A DNA stretch of 39,690 bases from a virus: the IMG/VR virus record IMGVR_UViG_3300008516_000249, positions 1 through 39,690 of that record. The stretch is one strand, 5' to 3'. The first letter of the stretch is position 1. Each line of letters starts with the position of its first letter. A program made the position numbers and the translations under genes. This document shows positions 15,510 through 31,180 of this stretch, piece after piece. The notes below the pieces were generated by a model. That model saw only the letters and a list, made by a program, of their open reading frames with translations, was not told the DNA's origin and did not search any database.

Positions 15510-15743
15510 ATGCCACTTAAATTACACTGTACTATTTGTGACCGGTTTATTGAAAATGTAACTGATACATCAAGTGTAACAGGTAAAGAAATTTGCCCTG
15601 ATTGCGGAAAAAGGATAACTCAGGTCAGAAGTGACCTTGAGAAATTTAATAAGAAATGGCATCACAAGTTGGAAGTCTTATATAGTAACGCTAAAGCTGA
15701 ACTTGATGAATTGGTATCAAAAATAATGAAGGAAAAAGAATGA
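15510..15743 (+). CDS. Zinc-ribbon protein with coiled coil, 77 aa
   Basis: An N-terminal zinc ribbon (CTICDRF at 7-13 and CPDCGKR at about 29-35) is followed by a long charged helix (SDLEKFNKKWHHKLEVLYSNAKAELDELVSKIM). GAGG precedes the ATG, and its stop overlaps the methyltransferase start (ATGA). Function unknown. Confidence 0.65.
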   Translation: MPLKLHCTICDRFIENVTDTSSVTGKEICPDCGKRITQVRSDLEKFNKKWHHKLEVLYSNAKAELDELVSKIMKEKE

Positions 15744-16936
15744 AGTGTAGAATCTGTTCCAATGATAAATTGCTCAAAGTCTTGGATTTAGGATTCCACC
15801 CTGTCTCGGATGGATTTTTAACCAGAGAACAACTAAAAGGCTGTGAAGTCTATTATCCTTTGGAACTATATTTCTGTGCAAAGTGCAGTTTAGTACAATT
15901 AGGTTATGTTGTTCCAAAAGAAATTCTATTTAGTGACGATTATCCCTATGCTACTGGAACAAATAAGGCTGGTGTGGAACACTTTAGGCAATTTGCAAAG
16001 GAAACAGTAGAACGTTTCAAACTTGGCAAGGATGATTTAGTAGTTGACATCGGAAGCAATGATGGAACGCTGTTGCAGGGGTTTAAGAACTTTGGGTGTA
16101 GAGTTTTAGGGGTAGAACCATGTAAACATTTGGCTGATATGGCTACTCAGGGTGGTATTGATACAATCCCATGTTTTTTTGGGCCTGTGCAAAATATTTT
16201 AAAGCAAAAAGCTCATATTATTGCAGCTACCAATGTCTTTGCTCATATAAATGATTTGCATGAATTTATGAAAAATGTGAAAGGAGCTTTAACTAATGAT
16301 GGCATCTTCATCATAGAAGCCCCTTACTTGCTCGATATGCTTGATGGCCTGCTCTATGACCAGATTTACCATGAGCATCTATCATATCTGGCTGTTAGGC
16401 CCTTGAAGGCATTATTTGCAAAATATAACATGGAGATATTTGATGTTCAAAAGGTGGATTTCCACGGTGGTTCGCTTCGCTACTTTGTGGCTCGGAATGG
16501 CAAGTATCCTACTTCTACTAATGTTGGTAGATTGCTACATTTAGAGAAATATTCAGTTGATAAGATTAGATTTGAAAATTTCGCCCATAGAGTGAGGAAA
16601 AGCCGTGAAAAGCTGTTATGGTTTATCTTATCCCTGAAACGTGCCGGTAAAAGAGTAGTTGGTGTTTGTGCGGCCGCCAAGGGAAATACTTTACTCAATT
16701 ATTGTCATATCGATCTTGATTACATAAGTGAGAAATCTGAATTGAAGGTGGGGAAATATTCACCTGGCAGACATATAAAAGTAATTTCAGATGAGGAGAT
16801 GATTGCCGATCAACCTGAATATGCTCTAATGCTAGCCTGTAACTTTGCAGGCAGTATTATACCTATTTTAAGAAAGAAGGGTTATAAGGGGAAGTTTATA
16901 CTTCCATTACCACAACCGGAGATATATGGGCATTGA
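15740..16936 (+). CDS. SAM-dependent sugar C-methyltransferase-like protein
   Basis: 398 residues with the three-part architecture of the NovU/TylCIII type. There is an N-terminal zinc domain (C3, C6, C46, C49), a central Rossmann methyltransferase with VVDIGSNDGT (101-110), and a C-terminal domain with CAAAKGNTLLN. YHEHLSY (210-216) is the catalytic motif region of sugar C-3 methyltransferases. Enzymes of this family methylate nucleotide-bound keto-deoxysugars. The GDP-mannose 4,6-dehydratase gene two genes downstream would make just such a keto sugar. Confidence 0.85.
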   Translation: MKCRICSNDKLLKVLDLGFHPVSDGFLTREQLKGCEVYYPLELYFCAKCSLVQLGYVVPKEILFSDDYPYATGTNKAGVEHFRQFAKETVERFKLGKDDLVVDIGSNDGTLLQGFKNFGCRVLGVEPCKHLADMATQGGIDTIPCFFGPVQNILKQKAHIIAATNVFAHINDLHEFMKNVKGALTNDGIFIIEAPYLLDMLDGLLYDQIYHEHLSYLAVRPLKALFAKYNMEIFDVQKVDFHGGSLRYFVARNGKYPTSTNVGRLLHLEKYSVDKIRFENFAHRVRKSREKLLWFILSLKRAGKRVVGVCAAAKGNTLLNYCHIDLDYISEKSELKVGKYSPGRHIKVISDEEMIADQPEYALMLACNFAGSIIPILRKKGYKGKFILPLPQPEIYGH

Positions 16937-17144: not shown

Positions 17145-18106
17145 CTAAAGCCCTAATCACTGGCGTAGGTGGACAGGATGGTTCTTATTTGGCTGAATTT
17201 CTACTTTCCAAAGGCTATGAGGTACATGGTATTATAAGGCGCGCTAGTACCTTTAATACAGCCAGGATTGACCACATAATAGATAAACTTCATCTTTGTC
17301 ATGGTGATGTAACGGATGGCTCATTTATTACCAACTTGATATTTGGGACTCATTTTGATGAGATTTATCATTTGGCTTCTCAAAGTCATGTCAGGGTGAG
17401 TTTTGACAATCCGGTATTCACAGCGGACGTTACAGGTACAGCAACGGCAATTATTCTGGAAGCACTCAGGGCAAGTCAGAACAAAGATACGAGGTTTTAC
17501 TATGCAGGAAGCAGTGAGATATTTGGAAATGCCCGATGCCCACAAGACGAAAATACACCTATCTCTCCAAGAAGTCCATATGGTTGTGCTAAGAGCTACG
17601 GGTATTGGATGGTCAAAAACTACAGAGAAGGATATGGCCTTCACGCAAGCACGGGAATCCTCTTCAACCATGAAAGCCCCAGAAGAGGAGAAACCTTCGT
17701 CACTAATAAAATTGCTAAAGCCGCGGCGAAAATCAAGTTGGGCCTTCAGAATATGCTCTATCTTGGGAATTTGGATTCAAAAAGGGACTGGGGCTATGTC
17801 CCGGATTTTATTGAGGCGATGTGGATGATGCTTCAACAGGATAAGCCTGGTGATTATGTCATTGCTACTGGAGAGAGTCATTCGGTCAGGGAATTTCTGG
17901 AGTTGGCCTTTCTATATTTGGATTTGGACTGGACAGACTATGTAGAGGAGCATGTTAAACAATATATGAGACCGACAGAGGTTCATCATTTATTGGGTGA
18001 TTCCCGTAAAGCACAGAGGATATTAGGTTGGGAACCTAAAGTCTATTTTGATGAGCTCGTTAAGATTATGGTAGATGAGGCAATGAATAAACAATGCGAT
18101 CAATAG
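17141..18106 (+). CDS. gmd: GDP-mannose 4,6-dehydratase
   Basis: 321 residues. The NAD(P)-binding loop [14 protein letters not shown] (8-21), AGSSEIFG (122-129), the catalytic pair Y147/K151 ([12 protein letters not shown]) and [15 protein letters not shown] are diagnostic for GMD, a short-chain dehydrogenase. It converts GDP-mannose to GDP-4-keto-6-deoxymannose, the entry to GDP-fucose, rhamnose and perosamine. No fucose synthase is seen in the window. Length is slightly under the usual 340-370. Confidence 0.93.
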
Positions 18107-18948
18107 CTCATATAGTTAATCCATTTATTCCCCCGATGACCTCTGATTTAGTGGTAGCGCAACCGGTTTGCTTTAAAAGTATGCGGATTGCCAGGAACTT
18201 TGTTGAATTTGGCCCGATTGCATCCGATGTTAAAATAGAGCAATTTGCTGTTATTCATCCTGGGGATGAAGAAATGTTGCCCCAGGGCTTTACCAGAACA
18301 AGAGACTTGGATAGATCGGTCCTGGATTTTGGTAAGTTTAACATAGAGCGCAGGTTGCCTCTATTCAGGGATATCCTTGATAGACTTTATGAGGCCTCGG
18401 ATGCGGATTATTTTATTCAGACTAATTCCGATATTCACTTAATGCCCCAATTCTATCATGTGGTTAATAATCTTATAGATATTGGACATGAGGCATTTTG
18501 TATTAACAAGAGGGTAATTCCTGATAGCTATAGTAGTGTTGATGAACTCCCTTTTATGTATTCTGAATTAGGAGAGGGCCATGCCGGTCTTGATTGCTTT
18601 GTCTTTCCAAGAAAGGTGTATCCTCGATGTAAAATAGGTAATATCTGTATGGGAACGCCCTGGTCCGAATCGACCCTGGCAACCAGTTTGGCTATTTATA
18701 CAAAGAATTTTACAGTATTCAGGACTTTGCACCTGACATTTCATATAGGAGATTCACGGATTTGGAAGCCAGCCAATTTCAGGGACTATCGGGAATACAA
18801 TATGATCCAGTTTTGTAAGACCCTGAAAGAACTAAAAAGGAAGAAAGTCACCATACTGAAGAATGAAATGGTTAAGTATTTTCTGGCTAAGATTAAAGAT
18901 GAGGCCAGAACCGGAGTGGCCCCTAAAGAATGCTTGAGGTTTTTATGA
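18094..18948 (+). CDS. Glycosyltransferase-like protein, 284 aa
   Basis: Overlaps the end of gmd by 13 bases. [16 protein letters not shown] (about 106-121) has the acidic pattern of a GT-A metal site, followed by [12 protein letters not shown]. The general shape suggests a sugar transferase, fitting its position behind gmd, but the family is not certain. A hydrolase or an unrelated nucleotide-binding fold remains possible. Confidence 0.55.
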
Positions 18949-19796: not shown

Positions 19797-20125
19797 TGGA
19801 GCGAATCCATAAAGTCTGGGGTGAACGCTGGCTAATTCGCCAGGATTCAACTCATGCTACCAGTTACTTGAAACTCAAAGCAAAGACACGGTGTTCCTGG
19901 CACTGCCATTCAGCAAAAAGTAATCTTTTTGTCCTTCTCAGTGGCAAGGTGGGTATCAAGACAGGACATGGTGAAATTCTCTTGCTACCAGGCCAGGAAT
20001 TTACGGTATATCCTGGGGAGTGGCACGAATTCAAAGTCTATGAGAATAGTGAGATGATTGAGGAAATGTATGTCCGATACGATGAATCCGATATTGAGAG
20101 GAAAAAGCTAGGGTCACGCCTATGA
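19796..20125 (+). CDS. Cupin-fold protein
   Basis: 109 residues from an ATG overlapping the previous stop. The two cupin motifs are visible: WHCHSAKSNLFVLLSGKVGI (His36, His38) and PGEWHEF (73-79, His78). The fold resembles mannose-6-phosphate isomerase type II-like and sugar epimerase cupins. It may act on a nucleotide sugar together with the gmd block, or have a purely metal-binding role. Its stop overlaps the portal start. Confidence 0.75.
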   Translation: MERIHKVWGERWLIRQDSTHATSYLKLKAKTRCSWHCHSAKSNLFVLLSGKVGIKTGHGEILLLPGQEFTVYPGEWHEFKVYENSEMIEEMYVRYDESDIERKKLGSRL

Positions 20126-22104
20126 TGAATAAAGAAAAAGAAAAAGAGATATTTCGAGTTCTTTTACGGCGGTATAAAGACCACTGGGATAGAAATCAAT
20201 ACAATAGAGAGAACTATAATGAGGAGTTGGAATACTATCTCGGTTATCGAAATGCTCAGGTTTACCCATTAGCATATAACCATGTTTTTAACCGTATTCT
20301 CCCTATTATTTATACGATTCTATCTCGATTCATGGACCAACTTTACCAGACAAGCAATATCGTTTCGATAAAACCCCGGAAGAGAAGGGACATAGGTAAT
20401 GCTAGCTCTGTAGAGGCGGTCTTAAATTTCCAACTTGAGAACCTAAATAGCGTTGATATGCAGGGTGGGTCTTACGTCACCATGCTGAAGTGGTTTTTCA
20501 ATGCCCTCACTTTCGGTAAAGGAATAGCTAAAACTTATTGGAGAAAGGAAGAGAGGATATCTCCCAAAAGAACAATATTACAGAGGCCAAACTTTGACAG
20601 TTTTGGTAACTTTCAAGGTATGGACCCGATTGATCACATTAGCCAGGAAATGGAGATGATCTATGATGGGCCTTATGTAGAAATACTACATAATAAGCTT
20701 TCCTTGCCTGACCCGGAATATAAGTCGATTCAGCAAATGCCCTCATTTTTCTTGATATACAAGAGAAGTGTTGATTATCTCAAGAAGATGGCGGATGAAG
20801 GCAAATACAAGAATATAAGAGAATTGGGGTGGACGGCGGCGAGTGAGGCCAGTCAATACGGACAAGACACAGACGAGGCATTTGTTAAAGGTTTGGAGAT
20901 CGCACGTGGACTAACAAAAGATCAGATTGAAGATAAATTGAAATCTCCGGAAGTTGACGTTCTTGAATGTTATACAAGACTAATTTTCGATGAAGCCCCT
21001 TATGCAGTTGGCAGTGGAGTAAAGATAAAGGGACTGGAAGAAGAGGCAATTGTCCATATCGGGAATTACAAAACTATTCTCTCTGTCCAAAGAAATCAGT
21101 ATGGCATAAGACCATTATTTGATATTGGTTGTTATATCCAACCGGAGATGTATTGGGATATTGGTCTGGTGCAATTAACCAAGGGAATCCAGGAACAAAT
21201 AAACAATCTGGCCAACCTGAGAATGCAGAACGTGATGATGATGGTTAATCAGATGATGAGGGTCAATCCTGATGCCGATATTGACCCTGAAGCTCTTCAA
21301 TGGAAACCATTTGGAATAATACCAGCAGAAAGAGACGATGTAGAACCAATAACAATTCCTGATATGCACTCGAATTTGTTTCTGGAGCAAGAAAATTTCT
21401 ATGAGAATACCATTCAGGATTTGACCGGGATGTATTCCTACAACATGGGCCAAACACCCCAACGCCAAGAGCGGGTGGGAGTTGTACATTCCATACAAAG
21501 CATGGGTGAGGCCCGCGTCAAACTCATGCTTATGTCTATGGATTACCTTGGGATACGTCCCTTATTGAAATATATGATGTTGCTTAATACCTTTCATTTA
21601 CCAAGTGGTTTTGAATATAGGATTAGCAGTCCGGATGACCCCCAACAGCAATTCGGGCAGATATTCGGGGATGATATTCATGGTGATTTTGATTATGCGG
21701 CTCGATATACGGCAATGGAACCGGCGTTGGGCAAACAATTCAGGGCGCAAAACTTAGTTCAATTAGCTCAATTATGGCATAACAATCCGTGGATTAATCA
21801 ATATCAGTGGAATAAAGTGCTGGGGGAACTGAATGATATAAGAGAGGCTGACCGGCTGCTAAAAACACCCCAGCAATTCCAACAGGAAATGCATCAACAA
21901 CAACAGGCTGCTATGCAGGCTGAAGAAGCAGAACGGCAAGGTAAACGACAGTTGGAGCAAACAAAAACACAAGGTAAACTACAGATAAGTGGTCAGGATT
22001 TCCAGGAAGACCAAGAGTTAGCAAGCCAGCAGTTTGGATATGATATGGTTCTTGAAGGGATAAAAGAAGAGGCGGCAACTGCCCAGAAACAGATTACTGA
22101 ATGA
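20122..22104 (+). CDS. Portal protein
   Basis: 660 residues. The N-terminal region (YNRENYNEELEYYLGYR..., PLAYNHVFNRILPIIYTILSRFMDQLY), the wing region, the stem-like DLTGMYSYNMGQTPQRQERVGVVHSIQS and a long Gln-rich C-terminal tail (QQQAAMQAEEAERQGKRQLEQ) fit the large podovirus-type portal. Size and position between terminase and scaffold/capsid genes agree. Portal dodecamers form the DNA entry channel. The Gln-rich tail may form the barrel extending into the head. Confidence 0.82.
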   Translation: MMNKEKEKEIFRVLLRRYKDHWDRNQYNRENYNEELEYYLGYRNAQVYPLAYNHVFNRILPIIYTILSRFMDQLYQTSNIVSIKPRKRRDIGNASSVEAVLNFQLENLNSVDMQGGSYVTMLKWFFNALTFGKGIAKTYWRKEERISPKRTILQRPNFDSFGNFQGMDPIDHISQEMEMIYDGPYVEILHNKLSLPDPEYKSIQQMPSFFLIYKRSVDYLKKMADEGKYKNIRELGWTAASEASQYGQDTDEAFVKGLEIARGLTKDQIEDKLKSPEVDVLECYTRLIFDEAPYAVGSGVKIKGLEEEAIVHIGNYKTILSVQRNQYGIRPLFDIGCYIQPEMYWDIGLVQLTKGIQEQINNLANLRMQNVMMMVNQMMRVNPDADIDPEALQWKPFGIIPAERDDVEPITIPDMHSNLFLEQENFYENTIQDLTGMYSYNMGQTPQRQERVGVVHSIQSMGEARVKLMLMSMDYLGIRPLLKYMMLLNTFHLPSGFEYRISSPDDPQQQFGQIFGDDIHGDFDYAARYTAMEPALGKQFRAQNLVQLAQLWHNNPWINQYQWNKVLGELNDIREADRLLKTPQQFQQEMHQQQQAAMQAEEAERQGKRQLEQTKTQGKLQISGQDFQEDQELASQQFGYDMVLEGIKEEAATAQKQITE

Positions 22105-23226: not shown

Positions 23227-24456
23227 ATGGCATTAGACTATTATGGAACGTCTACGGCCTCGGATAGAGGTGAATTTCAACTTGCCATCAGTGGTGCGGC
23301 TGCTGCAGGTCGTAACTTTGTTGCCGATACCGAGAGAAGGGATGTATCTGAAATTCTGGATTTACTTTCACTTGCAGAGACACCTTTCGTCAATAAAATC
23401 GGTTGGGGGCCTGATACTGGTGCTCTGAAACTTGAGTGGATGACTGAGCATCTTGGCCCTGGTTACATCGTTACTACTCTCGGTGCGGCCTCTGGTGCTG
23501 CTACTTCAATACTTGTGACCAGCATTGATGGTATGACTACTGCTGAAGCCATTAAGCAGGTAATGACAGGTGCGGTTCTGTATCACTTTTCTTCAACCGA
23601 TGCAGATGATTGTATGTATCTCGTTACCTCTATTGGTAGTGGCGGCGGCGGCAGTGTGACTTGTTCATGTATTATCTCTATCTATGGAGCGACGACATCC
23701 ACAGCATTAGGTGATAAATTTTATGTAATTGGGAACTTTGCAAATGAAGGTTCCTTACCGAGAACTCCGCACCCAAGAGATCGGGCGCTCTGTTCAAATG
23801 AAATGACAATCATAAGAAAGGATGTGGCAATCACTGGCTCAATGCAGAAAACAGATATGTATGCCATCAGCAATGAAGAGACCCATCAAATCCTGATGCG
23901 TCTGAAAGAACAGCAAAGGGAAAGAGAAAGGGCCGCTCTTTACAGTCATTACCGGGCCAAGACAAGTGTCGTGGCCGGAATGATGAACGGTGTATATGGT
24001 TTTCTGTTTACGCAGACAGGCGATCATATTGATGCCACTACCCGAAATCTTACAGAAACGGCTGTCAATAAGATAGTTAGTAAGGTTTGGGAAAATGGCG
24101 GCAGAAATCTGAGTTTCTGGGGCCACATTGACCAATGTGCTTTGTTTACAAGGTGGGATAAGAACAGAATCCGTATGCGGGTGAACGATACTAAGGGAGG
24201 TGGATTTATCAATTCCTACCTCACTGAAGCGGGGATAACATTGGATATAAATCCTATGGGTAATGTACCTCCGAACCTTGCATTCATTGTAGATGCGGCC
24301 AGGATTCACTTGCGGGCCAAGAAAGGGCGTAAGGCGATTCTGGAGAAACTCGGCAAGATGGGTGACTTTACCGATTGGCAGATGATCTCTGAATTCTCTA
24401 TGGAGATGAAGGGGTTTAATTTGGGCCAACATGGCATGTTTACCCGACTTGCGTAG
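23227..24456 (+). CDS. Major capsid protein, DUF5309/SU10-like
   Basis: 409 residues. RRDVSEILDLLSLAETPFVNKIGW near the N-terminus, TIIRKDVAITGSMQKTDMYAI, QREREAA-like helix and the C-terminal NLAFIVDAARIHLRAKKGR are the hallmarks of DUF5309 head proteins, HK97-fold capsid proteins of SU10-like podoviruses. An insertion of Ala/Thr/Gly/Ser-rich sequence (about 75-170) may form a surface domain. A strong AGGAGGATATT-ATG start is shared with the decoration-like genes downstream. Confidence 0.88.
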   Translation: MALDYYGTSTASDRGEFQLAISGAAAAGRNFVADTERRDVSEILDLLSLAETPFVNKIGWGPDTGALKLEWMTEHLGPGYIVTTLGAASGAATSILVTSIDGMTTAEAIKQVMTGAVLYHFSSTDADDCMYLVTSIGSGGGGSVTCSCIISIYGATTSTALGDKFYVIGNFANEGSLPRTPHPRDRALCSNEMTIIRKDVAITGSMQKTDMYAISNEETHQILMRLKEQQRERERAALYSHYRAKTSVVAGMMNGVYGFLFTQTGDHIDATTRNLTETAVNKIVSKVWENGGRNLSFWGHIDQCALFTRWDKNRIRMRVNDTKGGGFINSYLTEAGITLDINPMGNVPPNLAFIVDAARIHLRAKKGRKAILEKLGKMGDFTDWQMISEFSMEMKGFNLGQHGMFTRLA

Positions 24457-24508: not shown

Positions 24509-25777
24509 ATGCCAACGAGTGAAATAGCCTTAAAAAGCCCTCAAAATAAGGGCAATAAATACGAGCAGCTTATCAAAAAGCATCCCGAAGTTGGGAAGGC
24601 AGTCCTGAAAGGCTCATGGGATTTTATTGGGCATTCAAACAAAGGGACTGTTGAAACTTTAAATCCACTCTGGATGAAGAATATAGGCCAGAATCTCAAA
24701 AACAAACTTTGGCGTAAATGTGGTTCGGTTCGTAAAGATTGTATAGGTCTGGGTAAAAATAAGGCTTTAATCGGGGTTGGGGCAGGTCAGTCATTTAACA
24801 AAAATAAGCATGTGCTTAAGAATATAATAGATTTAGATGCATGTAAAGACTGGCGAGACAGAGACTTTATTGTAATTGCTTCTAACCATCAATTCAAGCC
24901 ACTTCTGGAGATGGGGATAATTCCCGATTTTGTCATTCTTGTAGATGGGAGTGATGTTGTTTACAACCAGCTCTTGCAAGACATACCAGAGGAAGGGCAA
25001 AATACGATTCTGTTGGCTGGTCTACATTGTTCACCCAATGTTTTGAAAGAATGGACAGGGCAGAAAAGAGAACTCAGATTTTTTCTCACTACAACTAAAG
25101 AGGTCAGAGAAGAATTTAGAAAGATTACGGGGAAGAACCCTACAGGTCATATAGTTTTGCAAGGTGGAAATGTTCTGAATACCATGCTCACGTTAGGGTT
25201 GCAGGTTTTCAATTCGCAGGTCTTTTTCGCCCTGGGTAATGATTTATCCTATCCGATACAAGAGGAATTGGAAAACCAGAGAACGAGCTATTATGCAGAT
25301 GGAGATTATTCAAGCAATAGGTCAGGGACAGGAACGGGGCGAGATGAGGCAGCCAGCAAGAAAAAATGGATGGGCTTTAATATAACGACAAAAATGTCTT
25401 TGGACTACCGAAACCACAACAGCTATCACATTGAACTTGAAGAAGTCGGTACATCGAGAACTCTCTGGGTTTATAAGACATGGCTTGAAACAAATATGCT
25501 TTTAAATTCTTACAAACCGGAAGCTCTCCAGGTTAAATATTACAACTGTACTGAAGGCGGGATCGCAGGCGTGATGGTGCATAATGATAATGATGAATTT
25601 ATGAACGACATAAGCAACTGGTTTTTGTTGGATGAGGTCTGTCCTCAATGGCATACAATTATGTTGGAAGATGCTGCTAATCAATTTCTTAAAGCCAAGG
25701 AGGTGATGTATCAATGGGAAAGAGGGGAAATGCTGTACGCTGTCCCAAATGCAACAAGTTTGGTTCAAACGATTTAG
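24509..25777 (+). CDS. Maf/DUF115 glycosyltransferase-like protein
   Basis: 422 residues. LIGVGAGQSFNKN (88-99), FIVIASNHQFKPLLEMGIIPDFVILVDGSD (120-149) and the later LQGGNVLNTMLTLGLQVF and FFALGNDLSYP match the DUF115 core of motility-associated factor (Maf) proteins. The same core occurs in the archaeal pterin enzyme MptE. Bacterial Maf proteins transfer nonulosonic acids to flagellin Ser/Thr. The gene follows the major capsid gene directly, so a virion protein could be its acceptor; this is inference. Confidence 0.72.
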   Translation: MPTSEIALKSPQNKGNKYEQLIKKHPEVGKAVLKGSWDFIGHSNKGTVETLNPLWMKNIGQNLKNKLWRKCGSVRKDCIGLGKNKALIGVGAGQSFNKNKHVLKNIIDLDACKDWRDRDFIVIASNHQFKPLLEMGIIPDFVILVDGSDVVYNQLLQDIPEEGQNTILLAGLHCSPNVLKEWTGQKRELRFFLTTTKEVREEFRKITGKNPTGHIVLQGGNVLNTMLTLGLQVFNSQVFFALGNDLSYPIQEELENQRTSYYADGDYSSNRSGTGTGRDEAASKKKWMGFNITTKMSLDYRNHNSYHIELEEVGTSRTLWVYKTWLETNMLLNSYKPEALQVKYYNCTEGGIAGVMVHNDNDEFMNDISNWFLLDEVCPQWHTIMLEDAANQFLKAKEVMYQWERGEMLYAVPNATSLVQTI

Positions 25778-26190
25778 GCGGTTATTGTAAGAAATGCTAT
25801 GCCGAAATGACTGTAGGAGTCCCAAAGACAGAGGTTATAGCAACTTGCACAAGATGTGGGCAACCTGCAACCAAAGTCAATGATGAATATAAGGGCTGTG
25901 TCCCTTATCCTCTGTGTGATGAGCATTATATTGATAAATTTGGCTTTATATTGGAAAGCGATTTTCAGCCAGGTAGTGAGCCGGCCTGTGTCCAATGTGG
26001 AGAACCGGCATTTAAGATAGATAGAAACAATCATCCTTATTGTTTACGGCATTACAGGGATAGAAATGAGGAACCTGTTGAGCCAGTACGAGACCACTTT
26101 GTAGCTGAATTCGGAATCTCCGACAAGCCGTTTATTACGGAGACTTTTGATATCGTAAAAGATAAATTCGATGTGGAGGGTAAATGGTAA
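25714..26190 (+). CDS. Triple zinc-ribbon protein, 158 aa
   Basis: AAGGAGGT lies nine bases before the ATG and inside the end of the Maf-like gene, giving a 64-base overlap. Three cysteine modules are seen: CPKC..CKKC, CTRCG...CDEH and CVQCG...CLRH, followed by an acidic tail. Such multiple treble-clef or zinc-ribbon proteins are common in metagenomic phages; function unknown. The last two modules look like repeats of one another. Confidence 0.65.
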   Translation: MGKRGNAVRCPKCNKFGSNDLGGYCKKCYAEMTVGVPKTEVIATCTRCGQPATKVNDEYKGCVPYPLCDEHYIDKFGFILESDFQPGSEPACVQCGEPAFKIDRNNHPYCLRHYRDRNEEPVEPVRDHFVAEFGISDKPFITETFDIVKDKFDVEGKW

Positions 26191-26390
26191 ATGCATTTGA
26201 ATCTGGCCTTTGTCTGAAATGTAAGATGCCCTTGATTGTTATTGATGACACACATTTATGTAGTGAGTGCAAAGAAATAATCAAGAAAATGCAATATGAG
26301 ATTATGAAGAGGAAAACACCAAAAGAACAGACCGGACATCGAAAAGTGTTTAATTTCATACATAAGCCGGTTATAGAAAAACAAGCATGA
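26184..26390 (+). CDS. Zinc-finger protein, 68 aa
   Basis: CLKC (10-13) and CSEC (26-29) form a four-cysteine site, with a basic helical C-terminus. Overlaps the previous and next genes by a few bases. Probably related to the adjacent zinc-ribbon protein. Function unknown. Confidence 0.6.
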   Translation: MVNAFESGLCLKCKMPLIVIDDTHLCSECKEIIKKMQYEIMKRKTPKEQTGHRKVFNFIHKPVIEKQA

Positions 26391-27166
26391 AGTGTTATCT
26401 TTGCGGAAATGAGACAGTAGGCTCAGTCTATTCTTATAGTGAGCCAGATAAATACCTTAAGGCAATCGGCCTTACAAAAAACCGTAGAACATGGTGGTAT
26501 TGTCCACAATGTGAATTTTACACTAATGCAAATGGATTAAGTGAAGGGCAATTAGAAGAAGCCTATCTTAAATATCGCAATTATGAAATGCGAGGCGCTA
26601 CTGTCAGGGAAGAGTTTGACAGGATAAATGCCCTGGATTTACTTGAATCGGAGAACAAGCCAAGAGTTGAATGGCTGAAAAATTATTTATCTATTGATTC
26701 GATGCTGGATATTGGTAGTGGATTGGGTATTTTCCCCTATCATATGAAAAAATATATAAAGCGGATACATTGCATTGAACCTGAACCTGAATCGGCAGAC
26801 TTTATAAAGAACGAACTCGGGTTTCAATGTCATCAAGGATTTTATGAGACAGGTTTATTTCCAAAGGTTGATCTGGTTACTCTGGTTCATGTTTTAGAGC
26901 ATATACCACAGCCGGTTAATTTTCTTAGAGGGATTAAAGAGTATGATTTAAAAGACAATGGCCTTATTTTCATAGAAGTACCGGATGCATGTGAATTTGA
27001 GTATCTTGATAAACATAATGATGATTTCAATTCGTTACATTTATGGTTTTTCAACCTCGCTACGTTAGACAGGGTTCTACGGAACAGTGGCTTTGTACCG
27101 TTTCTGGCAAAACGAGTGTATTACGAGAGCAGAAAATTAAGCAGAATTATGATGTTATGCAGATAA
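26387..27166 (+). CDS. Zinc-domain SAM methyltransferase
   Basis: 259 residues: N-terminal zinc site (C3, C6, C39, C42), then a Methyltransf_23-like Rossmann domain with LDIGSGLG (107-114), HCIEPEPES and the post-motif LVHVLEHIPQP. Similar two-domain methyltransferases act on nucleotide sugars or glycans. It starts in an ATGA overlap. Confidence 0.8.
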   Translation: MKCYLCGNETVGSVYSYSEPDKYLKAIGLTKNRRTWWYCPQCEFYTNANGLSEGQLEEAYLKYRNYEMRGATVREEFDRINALDLLESENKPRVEWLKNYLSIDSMLDIGSGLGIFPYHMKKYIKRIHCIEPEPESADFIKNELGFQCHQGFYETGLFPKVDLVTLVHVLEHIPQPVNFLRGIKEYDLKDNGLIFIEVPDACEFEYLDKHNDDFNSLHLWFFNLATLDRVLRNSGFVPFLAKRVYYESRKLSRIMMLCR

Positions 27167-27753
27167 TTCCTGTTACAAAATCAGGACTTTTTACCGAGCA
27201 GATCCATAGAACTTATAGGGCTGGATGGATTATTCTTGAAAGACTTATGGATCCTATATTGAGCAATAGAAAGGGTTGTATCGTGGAAATTGGTATGGGT
27301 GCTTCCACTTCTATGTTTGCCAAGTATGCTGAGAGACATAAGGTTAAGTTTTACAGTTGCGATAAAAATCCCTTGAAAACAGGGCAACCGTTATTCAAAG
27401 GACACAGCATTTTTGAGGGAAAATCATTTGATTTTATGAAACAATTTAAGGATGTCCCGGCTGTAGTTTTCATAGATGGTTGCCATGATTATGCGATTGC
27501 CAAAAAAGAATTTGGGTTTTTCTTAGATAAGTTAAGGGAAGGTGGGGTGATCTTCTTACATGATACGCTTCCACCTGAAGAGCGTTTATTAGCATCAAAC
27601 GCTTCCGGTGATGTTTACAAACTTAGACAAGAGATCGAGAAAAAAACACATATTCTGAATATAGATATTTTCACCTGGCCTTATACCGCAATTGATTCTG
27701 GCCTTACGATGGTGATTAAGAAAGAAAAAGATAGACCATATTGGAGACAATGA
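27157..27753 (+). CDS. Class I SAM methyltransferase-like protein
   Basis: 198 residues from the ATG at 27157 overlapping the previous stop region; a longer frame from 27043 lies inside the neighbour and has no ribosome site. VEIGMGAST (43-51) is the SAM loop, and VFIDGCHDY (104-112) followed by GGVIFLHD is typical of Methyltransf_24 enzymes linked to glycan biosynthesis. Substrate unknown. Confidence 0.75.
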   Translation: MQIIPVTKSGLFTEQIHRTYRAGWIILERLMDPILSNRKGCIVEIGMGASTSMFAKYAERHKVKFYSCDKNPLKTGQPLFKGHSIFEGKSFDFMKQFKDVPAVVFIDGCHDYAIAKKEFGFFLDKLREGGVIFLHDTLPPEERLLASNASGDVYKLRQEIEKKTHILNIDIFTWPYTAIDSGLTMVIKKEKDRPYWRQ

Positions 27754-28268
27754 ACATTCATCCGAGTGTAGAGATTGGCAAAAATCCCCGTTTCTTACAG
27801 GGTGTTGTTATAGACCGGGGTTGCGTAATCGGTGATAATGTTTTCTTAGGCAACTATGTTGTATTGCGAGATAATACCCATGTTGGAAATGATACTTCAA
27901 TCTCCCATTTCGCAACCACAGAGACAGGGGCTAAGATTGGAAATCATGTTAGAATGGGCGTTTATGCCCATGTTACCCGCGATGTCATAGTTGAAGACTG
28001 GGTTTTCTACGCTTTTATGGTCTATACCTTAAATGATAAATATATGGATTATGGTAGAAAAAATATGGTTCAGAAGTTAGAACCACCCATTATAAGATAC
28101 GGGGCAAGAATCGGAGGACGAGCTATTATAATGCCAGGTGTGGAAATTGGAAGAGAAGCCTTTATTGCTGCTAATTCTCTTGTAACTAAGGATTGTAAAC
28201 CATTTGGTATATACATGGGATTGCCTGCAAAACTTATAGGGGAAGTACCTCTTAATGAAAGACTTTAA
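27750..28268 (+). CDS. Hexapeptide-repeat acyltransferase
   Basis: 172 residues built of left-handed beta-helix hexapeptide repeats (IHPSVEIGKN, VIDRGCVIGDNVFLGNYVVL, GAKIGNHVRMG, ARIGGRAIIMPGVEIG, AFIAANSLVTKDC, GLPAKLIGEV). The final part is the classical N/O-acetyltransferase ending of sugar acetyltransferases. It would add an acyl group to an (amino)sugar nucleotide. ATG overlaps the previous stop, with GGAG upstream. Confidence 0.82.
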   Translation: MNIHPSVEIGKNPRFLQGVVIDRGCVIGDNVFLGNYVVLRDNTHVGNDTSISHFATTETGAKIGNHVRMGVYAHVTRDVIVEDWVFYAFMVYTLNDKYMDYGRKNMVQKLEPPIIRYGARIGGRAIIMPGVEIGREAFIAANSLVTKDCKPFGIYMGLPAKLIGEVPLNERL

Positions 28269-29004
28269 ACCAGCTACCTGTATCTGTCCGACTTATGGAA
28301 GAAGAAACCAGCTTAATGAAGCTGTTTATAGTTTTCTAAATCAAGATTACAAGGGGGAAAAAGAACTACTGATTGTGAATGACCATCCTGATGTTCAATA
28401 TGTATTTAAGCATCCAGAAGTCAGGATAATAAATTGTTCTGAGAGATTTGAATCACTTGGCGAAAAACTTAATTATTTATTTGAACAATCTACTTATGAG
28501 TGGGTGATTAATTGGCCTGATGATGATATCCAATTTTCCTGGGCAGTATCATTTCAAATGGCACAAATAGCAGAGAAACCAAAACAATTATTTGTTCCTC
28601 AAGGCTATTTCTCTTTAACAAATGGCGGTAAGCCCTTTCGTGGCGGTATTCGCAATCTGAAAAAACCTCTATATATTTGGGGTAAGGGACATCTTCCAGG
28701 ACTTATTTCATGCACCAAAAAAGCATGGAAAATTGTTGGAGGTTATTCACATATAGATAGGGCTGAAGATATTCATTTTGTGATGGATTTGAAGAGAAGG
28801 GGATTTTTTTCTGGATTTTGTCCTTTAAAACCGAGTGAGTCTTATTATATTTGGCGCTGGAATTGCGGTTGGATTCAAATGAGTAAAAATCGTGTACGCT
28901 GGGAAAGTAATGATAAAGGGCACTTTAAAATAGAACCTCAATGGTATAGAGATTATCCCAAGGAAGTCAGAATAGCACTTAAGGCACAGGGACTCATAAT
29001 TTAA
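28255..29004 (+). CDS. GT2-type glycosyltransferase
   Basis: 249 residues. The GT-A fold is recognised from ICPTYGRRNQLNEAVYSFLNQDY (10-32), LLIVNDHPD and the metal-binding NWPDDD (86-91). GLISCTKKAWKIVGGY and RAEDIHFVMDLKRRGF give the acceptor-side motif (ED). Transfers a nucleotide-activated sugar to an unknown acceptor. It overlaps the acyltransferase gene. Confidence 0.78.
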   Translation: MKDFKPATCICPTYGRRNQLNEAVYSFLNQDYKGEKELLIVNDHPDVQYVFKHPEVRIINCSERFESLGEKLNYLFEQSTYEWVINWPDDDIQFSWAVSFQMAQIAEKPKQLFVPQGYFSLTNGGKPFRGGIRNLKKPLYIWGKGHLPGLISCTKKAWKIVGGYSHIDRAEDIHFVMDLKRRGFFSGFCPLKPSESYYIWRWNCGWIQMSKNRVRWESNDKGHFKIEPQWYRDYPKEVRIALKAQGLII

Positions 29005-29676
29005 ATGATAAGTGTAATTATACCATTAATGCGGATACCGCCATATGACACCCAGATAAAAGATTTACTGAAATGTCTTAATCAACAGATAGTAGAACAT
29101 GAAGTTATTATTTCTGAACAAAAAGTCAGGAAGTACATAGATAAAAATAAACTGTTGAATCAAGGGTTTGCGAAAGCGAAAGGAAAATATATCTGGCATT
29201 GTGATGCCGATTTTCTTGTGGATGATAATTTTCTGAAAAGGATGCGAAATTCGCTTGAGTTGAATAAGTTGGATGTGATTTTTCCTATGTTCTTTTCCAA
29301 CATAAATCAGGCGTGGCGAATAGCAGATGGCGCACCTTTTATGAAAAGAGAAGTTCTTGAGAAACATGGGGATCTTGATGAGAATCTTATGGGTATCAGC
29401 TTTGTGACTTTTCCATTTCTGGACTGGTGTTTGGATAATACAAAATTTCATTGTTCTCCAAATTTTAAGATTGGTACAAACAGAAAACCTTTTATAAGGC
29501 AGGCTAAAGACAAGATGGACCCAGTTACTTTTAATAAAACACGGCCTGAATCAATAAAGATAATGAAGCGCCTCATAGCAAAGGGATTTGTGCCGCCCGG
29601 AATAATGCGAAGCAATGTTTATCTTGCTAATAAACGCACTCAATCAGCAGGGCTTGTAAAGTTTATGCCAATATGA
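29005..29676 (+). CDS. GT2-type glycosyltransferase
   Basis: 223 residues starting directly after the previous stop. SVIIPL at the N-terminus, then AKGKYIWHCDADFLVDDNFL with the DxD motif DAD (67-69), and the later DWCLDNTKFHC. This is a short GT-A transferase, perhaps of the galactosyltransferase-like (Glyco_tranf_2_2 or 7_C) type. It works presumably with the preceding transferase. Confidence 0.72.
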   Translation: MISVIIPLMRIPPYDTQIKDLLKCLNQQIVEHEVIISEQKVRKYIDKNKLLNQGFAKAKGKYIWHCDADFLVDDNFLKRMRNSLELNKLDVIFPMFFSNINQAWRIADGAPFMKREVLEKHGDLDENLMGISFVTFPFLDWCLDNTKFHCSPNFKIGTNRKPFIRQAKDKMDPVTFNKTRPESIKIMKRLIAKGFVPPGIMRSNVYLANKRTQSAGLVKFMPI

Positions 29677-30284
29677 TTTTTAATATTGCAGCAACAAAAG
29701 GACTTGAAGAATTAATTGTTCGGCAATATGGGAAATCTGTAAATCAAATATGCAAAGACCTTAATATTAAGAAAAGTGATCTTGTATGTCGGATTGTTGA
29801 TGGGCGGGTGATTCTCTGGAAGGATCTATTTTTCAACTATATTGAATTATTGATAAAATATCTAAGGTTAGTGAAGCCCAAAAGAATTCTTGAATGGGGT
29901 CCAGGACAGAGTACAAAAATAATGTTGCAAGAATGCCCCAATGCTCAAATAATTTGTTGTGAGAATAAAAAGGGATGGTTTGAAAAATATCAAAGAGAAC
30001 TTGGTGATAAAGTTAGATTCATTTATGTTGATGCACCCGATAACAACAGACAAGACAATAGATGGACTGCTTATACAGATCCAGCAGTCAAAGGAAAATT
30101 CGATCTAATTTTTGTCGATGGAAGAGAAAGAGTGAGATGTCTACAGACTGCTTTTAAGCGATTAAAGCCAAACGGTATTGTTCTTTTACATGATGCAAAT
30201 AGAACATACTATGAAGAAGGAATTCGCCTTTTTGATCAAGTCGAAAAGGCAAATGATACAGTATGCTTAAAGATAGGACATTGA
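29673..30284 (+). CDS. SAM methyltransferase-like protein
   Basis: 203 residues. ILEWGPGQST (about 71-80) is a modified SAM-binding loop and DLIFVDGRERVRCLQTAFKRLKPNGIVLLHD is the Methyltransf_24-like second half. Such proteins are often found beside glycosyltransferases. The stop lies inside the next gene. Confidence 0.7.
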   Translation: MIFNIAATKGLEELIVRQYGKSVNQICKDLNIKKSDLVCRIVDGRVILWKDLFFNYIELLIKYLRLVKPKRILEWGPGQSTKIMLQECPNAQIICCENKKGWFEKYQRELGDKVRFIYVDAPDNNRQDNRWTAYTDPAVKGKFDLIFVDGRERVRCLQTAFKRLKPNGIVLLHDANRTYYEEGIRLFDQVEKANDTVCLKIGH

Positions 30285-31180
30285 TTAATCCTGAAGTCAG
30301 GATAGAGAATACAAATCGATGCAATGCTTCATGTGTCATGTGTGCCCATGATAAAATGACACGAAAAAGGGGTACAATGACAACGGCATTATTTAAGCCA
30401 TTAGCAGAGCAAGCAAAGGAATTAGGGGCGACAACAATTTCGATATTTGGCTTTGGGGAACCTTTTCTTGATGATAATTTAGTTGGTAAAGTAAAAATTT
30501 GCAGTGACTTGGGATTAGATACATTCATCACTACCAATGGCAGTTGTTGTACCTGGACGATAATGTATGACCTTTTTGATGCTGGCTTGACCCATATTCG
30601 GTTTAGCGTTCATGGTACAAATGGAAATTATGAAAAAGTCCAGCATGGTTTGAAATATGATACTTTGATGACAAATGTTTTTTCCACCATCTTGCTACGA
30701 AATCTTATATATCCGGATCGTAAGATTTCAGTGACAGCCATGCCGATGAGTGGGGAGAATATAGAAAAATTGATGATTTGGAAATTTACTGGTATTGACT
30801 GGTTAGAAATATGGCGGCCTCACAATTGGGCGACTAAGAAACAATTTCGCACTAAAACTAATAATAGAAGGAAATGTTTCAGACCCGTTAAGGGGCCGCT
30901 ACAGATACAATGGGATGGTAAGGTTATTCCCTGTTGTTTTATAACCGATGCAGAATTGGTATTAGGGGATGCACACAAGCAAACCCTGGAGGAAATCCTA
31001 AAAGGAGACCCCTACGAAGAATTGCGAGAAAGACATAGGAAGGGCGACTTGAAAGGACTGCCTTGCTATGACTGTGACCAAAGAAATATAGAAGAGGAAA
31101 ATCCTTTACTATATTCAAGCAGGGATAAGGATAGGAAAATAAACACAACTTCATCATTGAAGTTTAGTTTGGAGGATTAA
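30263..31180 (+). CDS. Radical SAM/SPASM domain protein
   Basis: 305 residues. CNASCVMC (C20, C24, C27) binds the radical SAM 4Fe-4S cluster; GFGEPFLD, TNGS and SVHG are the following radical SAM strands. CFRPVKGPLQIQWDGKVIPCC (C205, C224, C225) and LPCYDCD (C268, C271) form a SPASM-type auxiliary cluster site. SPASM enzymes modify peptides or sugars. Here it closes the carbohydrate island and may act on a sugar or on a virion peptide; either is inference. Confidence 0.85.
   Translation: MLKDRTLINPEVRIENTNRCNASCVMCAHDKMTRKRGTMTTALFKPLAEQAKELGATTISIFGFGEPFLDDNLVGKVKICSDLGLDTFITTNGSCCTWTIMYDLFDAGLTHIRFSVHGTNGNYEKVQHGLKYDTLMTNVFSTILLRNLIYPDRKISVTAMPMSGENIEKLMIWKFTGIDWLEIWRPHNWATKKQFRTKTNNRRKCFRPVKGPLQIQWDGKVIPCCFITDAELVLGDAHKQTLEEILKGDPYEELRERHRKGDLKGLPCYDCDQRNIEEENPLLYSSRDKDRKINTTSSLKFSLED

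Follow-up and report, generated by a model that had tools for sequence, protein, structure and literature searches.

Gene cassette and its relatives

The window, that is, the whole stretch of DNA analysed, is the linear IMG/VR virus record IMGVR_UViG_3300008516_000249, 39,690 bases in length. Its positions 24509-31180, between an SU10-type major capsid protein (MCP) gene and three small tandem paralogues, contain ten open reading frames (ORFs), all in one direction (plus strand), which encode a Maf-type glycosyltransferase, two Cys-rich proteins, a series of group and sugar transferases, and a radical-SAM enzyme (Table 1). A preliminary description had listed this cassette as a possible phage-encoded system for glycosylating virion proteins, and the genes are present as named, with PF01973, Methyltransf_23, Methyltransf_24 (twice), Hexapep, Glycos_transf_2 (twice), and Radical_SAM with SPASM all above the Pfam cut-offs. 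From the scaffold gene to the third paralogue the gaps between genes range from -64 to +52 nucleotides (nt). The term "zinc ribbons," also used in that description, suits the first Cys-rich protein (11 Cys in 158 residues) only by weak DZR_2 and Zn_ribbon_8 matches below the cut-off, and the second (68 residues) has no zinc-ribbon match in Pfam. At E 0.01, PHROGs assigned no family to Maf, either GT2 protein, or the last methyltransferase. Promoter-like signals (42 vs. 39.5 in shuffled sequences) and terminator-like signals (13 vs. 10.1) are near the shuffle level.

Table 1. Genes of the window discussed in the text, in order of position
Position	Strand	Feature	Basis
15740..16936	+	Sugar C-methyltransferase, upstream accessory island	PF08421 + PF08484; 45.7% homologue in L015
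17141..18106	+	GDP-mannose 4,6-dehydratase (gmd), upstream accessory island	TIGR01472 438.6 bits vs. cut-off 415
18094..18948	+	Unknown-family protein, GT-A-like by eye only	Homologues: 57% in G001, 41% in L015
19763..20125	+	Cupin, sugar-isomerase-like, adjoins portal	Weak cupin/MannoseP_isomer matches below cut-off
20122..22104	+	SU10-type portal, anchor for finding relatives	PF23899 1.3e-22
23227..24456	+	SU10-type MCP, candidate acceptor	PF17236 2.8e-39
24509..25777	+	Maf-type glycosyltransferase (PF01973), putative module core	Pfam 1.1e-19; in 14/14 lineages
25714..26190	+	Cys-rich zinc-ribbon-like protein	Sub-cut-off Pfam matches; 64-nt overlap with Maf gene
26184..26390	+	Small Cys-rich protein	4 Cys in 68 residues; homologues in relatives
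26387..27166	+	Methyltransf_23 protein, variable slot	Pfam; same-slot homologue in 6/14 lineages including window
27157..27753 (mechanical ORF from 27043)	+	Methyltransf_24 protein, variable slot	PF13578 4.5e-14
27741..28268 (TTG 27741 or ATG 27750)	+	Left-handed beta-helix acyltransferase, variable slot	PF00132 4.6e-24
28255..29004	+	GT2 glycosyltransferase, variable slot	PF00535 6.8e-9
29005..29676	+	GT2-like glycosyltransferase, variable slot	PF00535 2.6e-7 (weaker of the two); 43% homologue in L058
29673..30284	+	Second Methyltransf_24 protein, variable slot	PF13578 3.4e-8
30263..31180	+	Radical-SAM enzyme, BtrN-like twitch/SPASM domain, near-constant core	PF04055 + PF13186
31184-31684, 31697-32194, 32205-32699	+	Three tandem paralogues, candidate virion proteins/acceptors	46% and 41% identity to the first

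Viral contigs scanned with the MCP or Maf as single sequences revealed no relatives. A scan with TerL recovered a relative at 75% identity, present in two records that are mutually 98.9-100% identical over the ORFs compared. Alignment-based scans with Maf, portal, and radical-SAM, together with a single scan of genome contigs, brought the total, near duplicates being counted once, to 14 lineages: the window, G001, L015, L017, L024, L025, L027, L030, L031, L032, L033, L040, L044, and L058. Of the anchors used, the portal introduces the least bias, Maf having played no part in its choice. Its scan yielded 15 loci, of which the 13 at 47% identity or above all possess Maf after the MCP; eight of these 13 contigs were new (8/8 with Maf), and two of the eight are near-identical. 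Two distant portal loci (21-23%) have no Maf match.

Maf directly follows the MCP in 12 of the 14 lineages, with one ORF in between in L030 and L032. It is followed by two short ORFs with 3-11 Cys (counted in 13 lineages), the first of which overlaps the end of Maf by 58-226 nt in all 14 (mechanically called ORFs). Recurrence of this core order in 13 further lineages indicates that the layout seen in the window is not due to chance. The radical-SAM gene ends the variable slot in 13/14 lineages, and a profile search finds it in 13 of 15 records, the exceptions being G012 (L033) and G017 (L035).

The slot itself contains, in the window, two methyltransferases, an acyltransferase, two GT2 proteins, and a further methyltransferase; in G001, two methyltransferases and a sulfotransferase-like protein; in L015, two methyltransferases; in L024 and L040, one methyltransferase; in L058, a GT2-like protein and a methyltransferase; and in L017 and L030, a sulfotransferase-like protein (by PF13469 in the former, by similarity in the latter). 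Another type of methyltransferase (38-47% mutual identity; Pfam run on L025) is found with a short ORF family in L025, L031, and L032, the last of which has a sulfotransferase-like protein in addition. The space between the Cys-rich proteins and radical-SAM is empty in L027 and L044, and neither radical-SAM nor a transferase was seen there in L033. Since its contents vary between lineages, we regard the tailoring enzymes as cargo; GMD, GT2, and methyltransferase genes were rejected as module core, being variable or absent in relatives. Comparison of the loci indicates that the constant part is the MCP, Maf, the Cys-rich proteins, and, nearly always, radical-SAM. The view of the cassette as a single system thus holds for Maf, the Cys-rich proteins, and mostly radical-SAM, and fails for the methyltransferases, GT2 proteins, and acyltransferase, which vary and are missing from two lineages. 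A 318-residue family with no Pfam match occurs after the radical-SAM slot in L017 (13140-14096) and also in L030 (partial), L032, and L033. L058 (MELM01000008.1) is an 8-kb contig binned in the metagenome-assembled genome (MAG) of Candidatus Solincola sediminis, which reflects either a host link or a binning error.

To determine relative divergence, pairwise identities were compared by the Mantel test, using 13 lineages for Maf, MCP, and portal, and 11 for TerL and radical-SAM. Maf correlates with the portal (r 0.83) and the MCP (r 0.82; P 1e-4 for both), which comes close to the value for MCP-portal (0.87) and exceeds those for TerL-portal (0.54) and TerL-Maf (0.48). Maf tracks the MCP and portal, the behavior of a head-module gene rather than of loose cargo.

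Outside the group, the weak portal match L036 yielded nothing with the profiles for Maf, radical-SAM, or MCP. Twelve loci from the radical-SAM scan (L045 and L047-L057; 22-36% identity) have no Maf by profile among their closed ORFs, and L046, in its closed ORFs, gave no profile match. L035, a 10-kb contig with a portal at 21%, has no Maf or radical-SAM match and carries sugar-nucleotide genes after its capsid-like gene. At L035:4057-9091 (IMGVR_UViG_3300035698_007331) this gene is followed by a short-chain dehydrogenase/reductase, a DegT aminotransferase, a dehydrogenase-like protein, a hexapeptide protein, and a UDP-GlcNAc 2-epimerase, which by predicted gene content is a second, different sugar cassette behind a capsid-like gene, without Maf. 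Among cultured phages (INPHARED, tblastn) there was no match for the Maf of the window or of L044, and only remote matches for portal, terminase, radical-SAM, and MCP. Sporosarcina phage Lietuvens (MCP 24%) has no annotated sugar or group transferase in the stretch read after its capsid or portal gene; nor does Microcystis phage MaAM05 (portal 21%), where the genes in that stretch are unnamed.

Maf, radical-SAM, and the probable donor

The window Maf scores 71.3 bits against PF01973, for which the gathering threshold is 34.6. An AlphaFold2 model based upon 14 phage sequences (pLDDT 84.6, pTM 0.86) gave as its best Foldseek match in the PDB the Magnetospirillum Maf 5MU5 (4.3e-7), with a VIA-align Z of 21.7 and a root-mean-square deviation of 3.3 over 247 residues. 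The next fold matches are the pterin kinase MptE (Z 14.4), SteA (~10), and bacterial and mammalian sialyltransferases (~8). A phmmer search of the PDB found no match up to E 1, and the family profile reached MptE at no better than E 0.033; it is the fold comparison that separates Maf from MptE, and by the model the PF01973 protein lies clearly nearer to Maf, as the preliminary description had it. Maf enzymes and sialyltransferases use CMP (cytidine monophosphate)-activated sugar acids. The phage protein shares with bacterial Maf (5MU5; PseD/Maf) its Pfam family, its fold, and a probable CMP-ulosonic-acid donor class; a self-assembling surface protein as target is the logic that we propose they also have in common. 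It differs in size (422 vs. 632 residues for 5MU5) and in its location within a phage head gene run. Maf genes are usually found among flagellar or nonulosonate genes. A Pfam scan of 30 window proteins detected no flagellar family, and the neighbors are head genes; NeuB was not included in the search.

The radical-SAM profile (13 members) matches BtrN in the PDB at 3.3e-18 over both domains, followed by the sugar-nucleotide decarboxylase BlsE (5.3e-11), MoaA (6.9e-10), the peptide enzyme PqqE (1.3e-8), and YydG (6e-5). BtrN, the butirosin dehydrogenase, is a twitch-domain enzyme that oxidizes a cyclitol (PMC9012708, in the text available). The phage protein resembles it in the CxxxCxxC core (C20, C24, and C27 in 12/13 rows, the L031 row beginning past the motif), in its twitch domain, and in four Cys of a putative single auxiliary cluster (C205, C224/C225, C268, and C271), which are invariant and, as aligned, coincide with those of BtrN; it is distant in sequence and a predicted enzyme only. 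Its scores stay below every NCBIfam radical-SAM cut-off listed. That it acts on a sugar is, from these comparisons, the better guess. In L031 (16713-17627) an in-frame TAA lies near the start of the radical-SAM frame and the listed ORF starts late, which is either real or an assembly error.

A search of 14 virus records and one MAG for cytidylyltransferases (PF02348) revealed one gene each in L033 and L044, and weak ones in the MAG. Both phage proteins pass TIGR00466, the model for the CMP-Kdo (3-deoxy-D-manno-octulosonic acid) synthetase KdsB, with 195.5 and 179.9 bits vs. 155.2. In L033 the gene adjoins TerL upstream, and in L044 it is one ORF from TerL. L033 therefore possesses Maf and KdsB without radical-SAM, and L044 has Maf, radical-SAM, and KdsB without an enzyme between the Cys-rich proteins and radical-SAM. 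In E. coli, a bacterial Maf places Kdo and N-acetylneuraminic acid on Ser/Thr of flagellin, visible as +220 Da steps (PMC11339370, available text). Given a phage kdsB in two relatives and a Maf that transfers Kdo, the simplest donor would be CMP-Kdo or a relative of it, an assignment made by analogy.

Virion proteins as candidate acceptors, and the alternatives

Two candidate acceptors adjoin the cassette. Residues 78-171 of the MCP are variable (mean identity 31% vs. 51% in the C-terminal part) and in the window consist of 25.5% Ser/Thr vs. 12.7% in the remainder; this region is the Ser/Thr-richer one in 13/13 MCPs (mean 24.8% vs. 15.5%). To our knowledge, Maf enzymes have no clear sequon. 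The family of the three paralogues occurs after radical-SAM in eight lineages, that is, in the window and, as shorter relatives, in seven others; other small proteins are found there in five. The window paralogues carry an insertion of ~70 residues that the relatives lack. The structural model is of a small beta protein with a pLDDT of 58.4 (residues 81-151 under 50) and has no match in BFVD at E 0.001. The earlier label "three decoration-like paralogues" is accordingly borne out for the paralogy, and not for a role in decoration.

The explanation that we favor, with a little better than an even chance of being correct, is a head-module system for protein O-glycosylation, in which a CMP-ulosonic acid is used to modify a virion protein and the glycan receives lineage-specific tailoring. 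Maf would be made together with the head proteins and act in the cytoplasm, where it would join a 2-keto-3-deoxy sugar acid, activated by CMP (Kdo or an ulosonic acid related to it), to Ser/Thr residues of a virion protein. The likeliest acceptor would be, in the MCP, the variable region richer in Ser/Thr, or else the small beta proteins whose genes come after radical-SAM; the donor would be supplied by the host and boosted in two relatives by the phage CMP-Kdo synthetase. Both acceptor and donor are ones that we infer. Radical-SAM may oxidize or otherwise tailor the sugar, and the exchangeable transferases (methyl-, sulfo-, acetyl-, and GT2-type), joined in the window by a guanosine diphosphate (GDP)-deoxyhexose island, would build a glycan specific to the lineage. 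Such a glycan could alter the particle surface with respect to adsorption, protection, or assembly. In a broader form, the whole uncultured SU10-related group would depend on capsid-coupled Kdo/ulosonic-acid O-glycosylation by a Maf that co-evolves with the capsid, a radical-SAM sugar dehydrogenase finishing the glycan, and the virion glycan would derive from an LPS (lipopolysaccharide)-type sugar tailored by radical chemistry; this we put forward tentatively, as one possibility among several. The claim that virion proteins are the acceptors is partly supported overall, being favored over a host-surface target by the Maf fold, the co-divergence with MCP and portal, the lack of transmembrane (TM)-like segments in the cassette, and the lack of a tyrosine integrase in the records searched.

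Several findings weigh against this explanation. All records are uncultured contigs, and modification of a virion protein is inferred. With PseD (NF050051 of NCBIfam) Maf scores 22.9 bits (2.9e-5) against a cut-off of 670 and is not a PseD equivalog, and MptE-like proteins of the same fold class, with no known role, are present in BFVD among other uncultured Caudovirales (E down to 5.9e-14, ~11-17% identity). The distant L035 capsid, which is not accompanied by Maf, reaches 25% Ser/Thr in a 92-residue stretch, the richest stretch of L017 lies outside region 78-171, and the Lietuvens MCP has only 16% in the comparison stretch; in view of these values Ser/Thr richness is only a hint of an acceptor. 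Radical-SAM correlates weakly with portal (r 0.44), MCP (0.29), and Maf (0.28), and therefore seems to have been exchanged more freely; together with its absence from L033 this implies that it is not obligatory. Its nearest NCBIfam model in the window is a tungsten-enzyme maturase (6.1e-23, below cut-off), then MoaA and PqqE, and in the PDB comparison, too, the peptide enzyme PqqE is among its relatives. KdsB was found neither in the window nor in 12 of the 14 virus records.

Host-surface remodelling is the strongest of the alternatives, although disfavored and in our judgment unlikely: the cassette would modify lipopolysaccharide (LPS), capsule, or another envelope glycan, for example blocking superinfection or freeing progeny. 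CMP-Kdo is an LPS precursor, and clusters for surface polysaccharides typically include genes of the GMD, C-methyltransferase, GT2, acyltransferase, and epimerase types. Auxiliary kdsB genes of viruses have been published before; the available text of PMC9529941 and PMC10653327 takes them to serve LPS synthesis, one of the two suggesting a block to superinfection. By simple hydropathy, however, no plus-strand ORF of at least 60 residues with at least three TM-like segments occurs in the 13 relative loci, and none of the 14 proteins tested from cassette and island has a TM-like segment; the window has one plus-strand ORF with a single segment (11078), and no multi-span flippase or transferase of the Gtr (serotype conversion) type was seen in the loci scanned. 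Without a flippase or polymerase of its own the phage has less means for remodelling an envelope, although these steps could be contributed by the host, which keeps the alternative alive. Nor was a PF00589 tyrosine integrase found in any of the 15 records, which are possibly fragments (14 control genomes were positive; serine recombinases were not part of the search). Moreover, the member kept throughout, Maf, belongs to a type that glycosylates proteins, has its gene in the head gene run, and diverges together with the MCP; and in L027 and L044 radical-SAM follows the Cys-rich proteins with no transferase in between.

Less probable still is that PF01973 and radical-SAM act outside glycans, as an MptE-type pyrophosphokinase or by radical-SAM modification of a virion protein, the other enzymes being unrelated cargo. 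Pfam names PF01973 MptE-like, MptE is the second fold match, and the maturase-type NCBIfam model and the relationship to PqqE and YydG also speak for it. Against this, the Maf fold match is clearly better, the solved structures nearest to radical-SAM are BtrN and then BlsE, and partners of the KdsB, sulfo, and GT2 types suggest glycans. It is improbable that the phage Maf glycosylates host flagellin or another host protein, changing motility or masking a receptor: the bacterial Maf acceptors are flagellins, but the Maf of PMC11339370 left non-cognate flagellins unmodified, as far as the available text goes, and the position in the head operon and the co-divergence with the MCP also speak against it. 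A DNA hypermodification cassette is very improbable, for although phages use sugar transferases on modified bases (PMC12619734, available text), no base-hydroxylating or thymidylate-synthase-like family was found in the cassette or the ten early ORFs scanned (other early ORFs lay outside the scan), and by its fold Maf is a relative of CMP-sugar transferases.

Phage virion glycosylation is already known, as a recent finding in mycobacteriophages, whose own glycosyltransferases give rise to glycans on capsid and tail tube proteins (PMC11256854 and PMC12619734 in the portions available, both citing Freeman et al. 2023). In PMC11256854 those genes lie near the 3′-end of the genome, and the available text mentions no Maf or radical-SAM; the Maf studied here is beside the MCP. 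A Maf-based form was not found described: of the papers listed by searches of the open-licence PMC literature, none presents a Maf-capsid module in its title or the start of its abstract. If the head-module explanation is correct, a capsid-adjacent Maf across an uncultured phage group would represent a second, unrelated route to virion glycosylation, and viral capsids would join the targets of Maf. The enzyme that touches the virion protein would then be separable from those that only tailor the glycan. A direct test is feasible, combining two neighboring phage genes and determining the mass of the capsid protein.

Genes upstream of the capsid gene

The gmd gene of the upstream island, which the preliminary description had joined to the cassette, exceeds the NCBIfam cut-off for GMD; none of the other loci compared showed a homologue of it. 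On the modelled Maf fold, a CMP-sugar-acid donor fits better than GDP-sugars. The protein encoded at 18094-18948, without a Pfam or NCBIfam match at E 0.01, is conserved between sugar genes and the portal in three lineages. A homologue of the cupin is present in 11 of the 13 lineages whose loci span its place; the gene overlaps that of the portal by 4 nt and its product is possibly sugar-related. Among the early genes, 1067-1762 encodes a protein resembling 3′-phosphoadenosine-5′-phosphosulfate reductase (PF01507).

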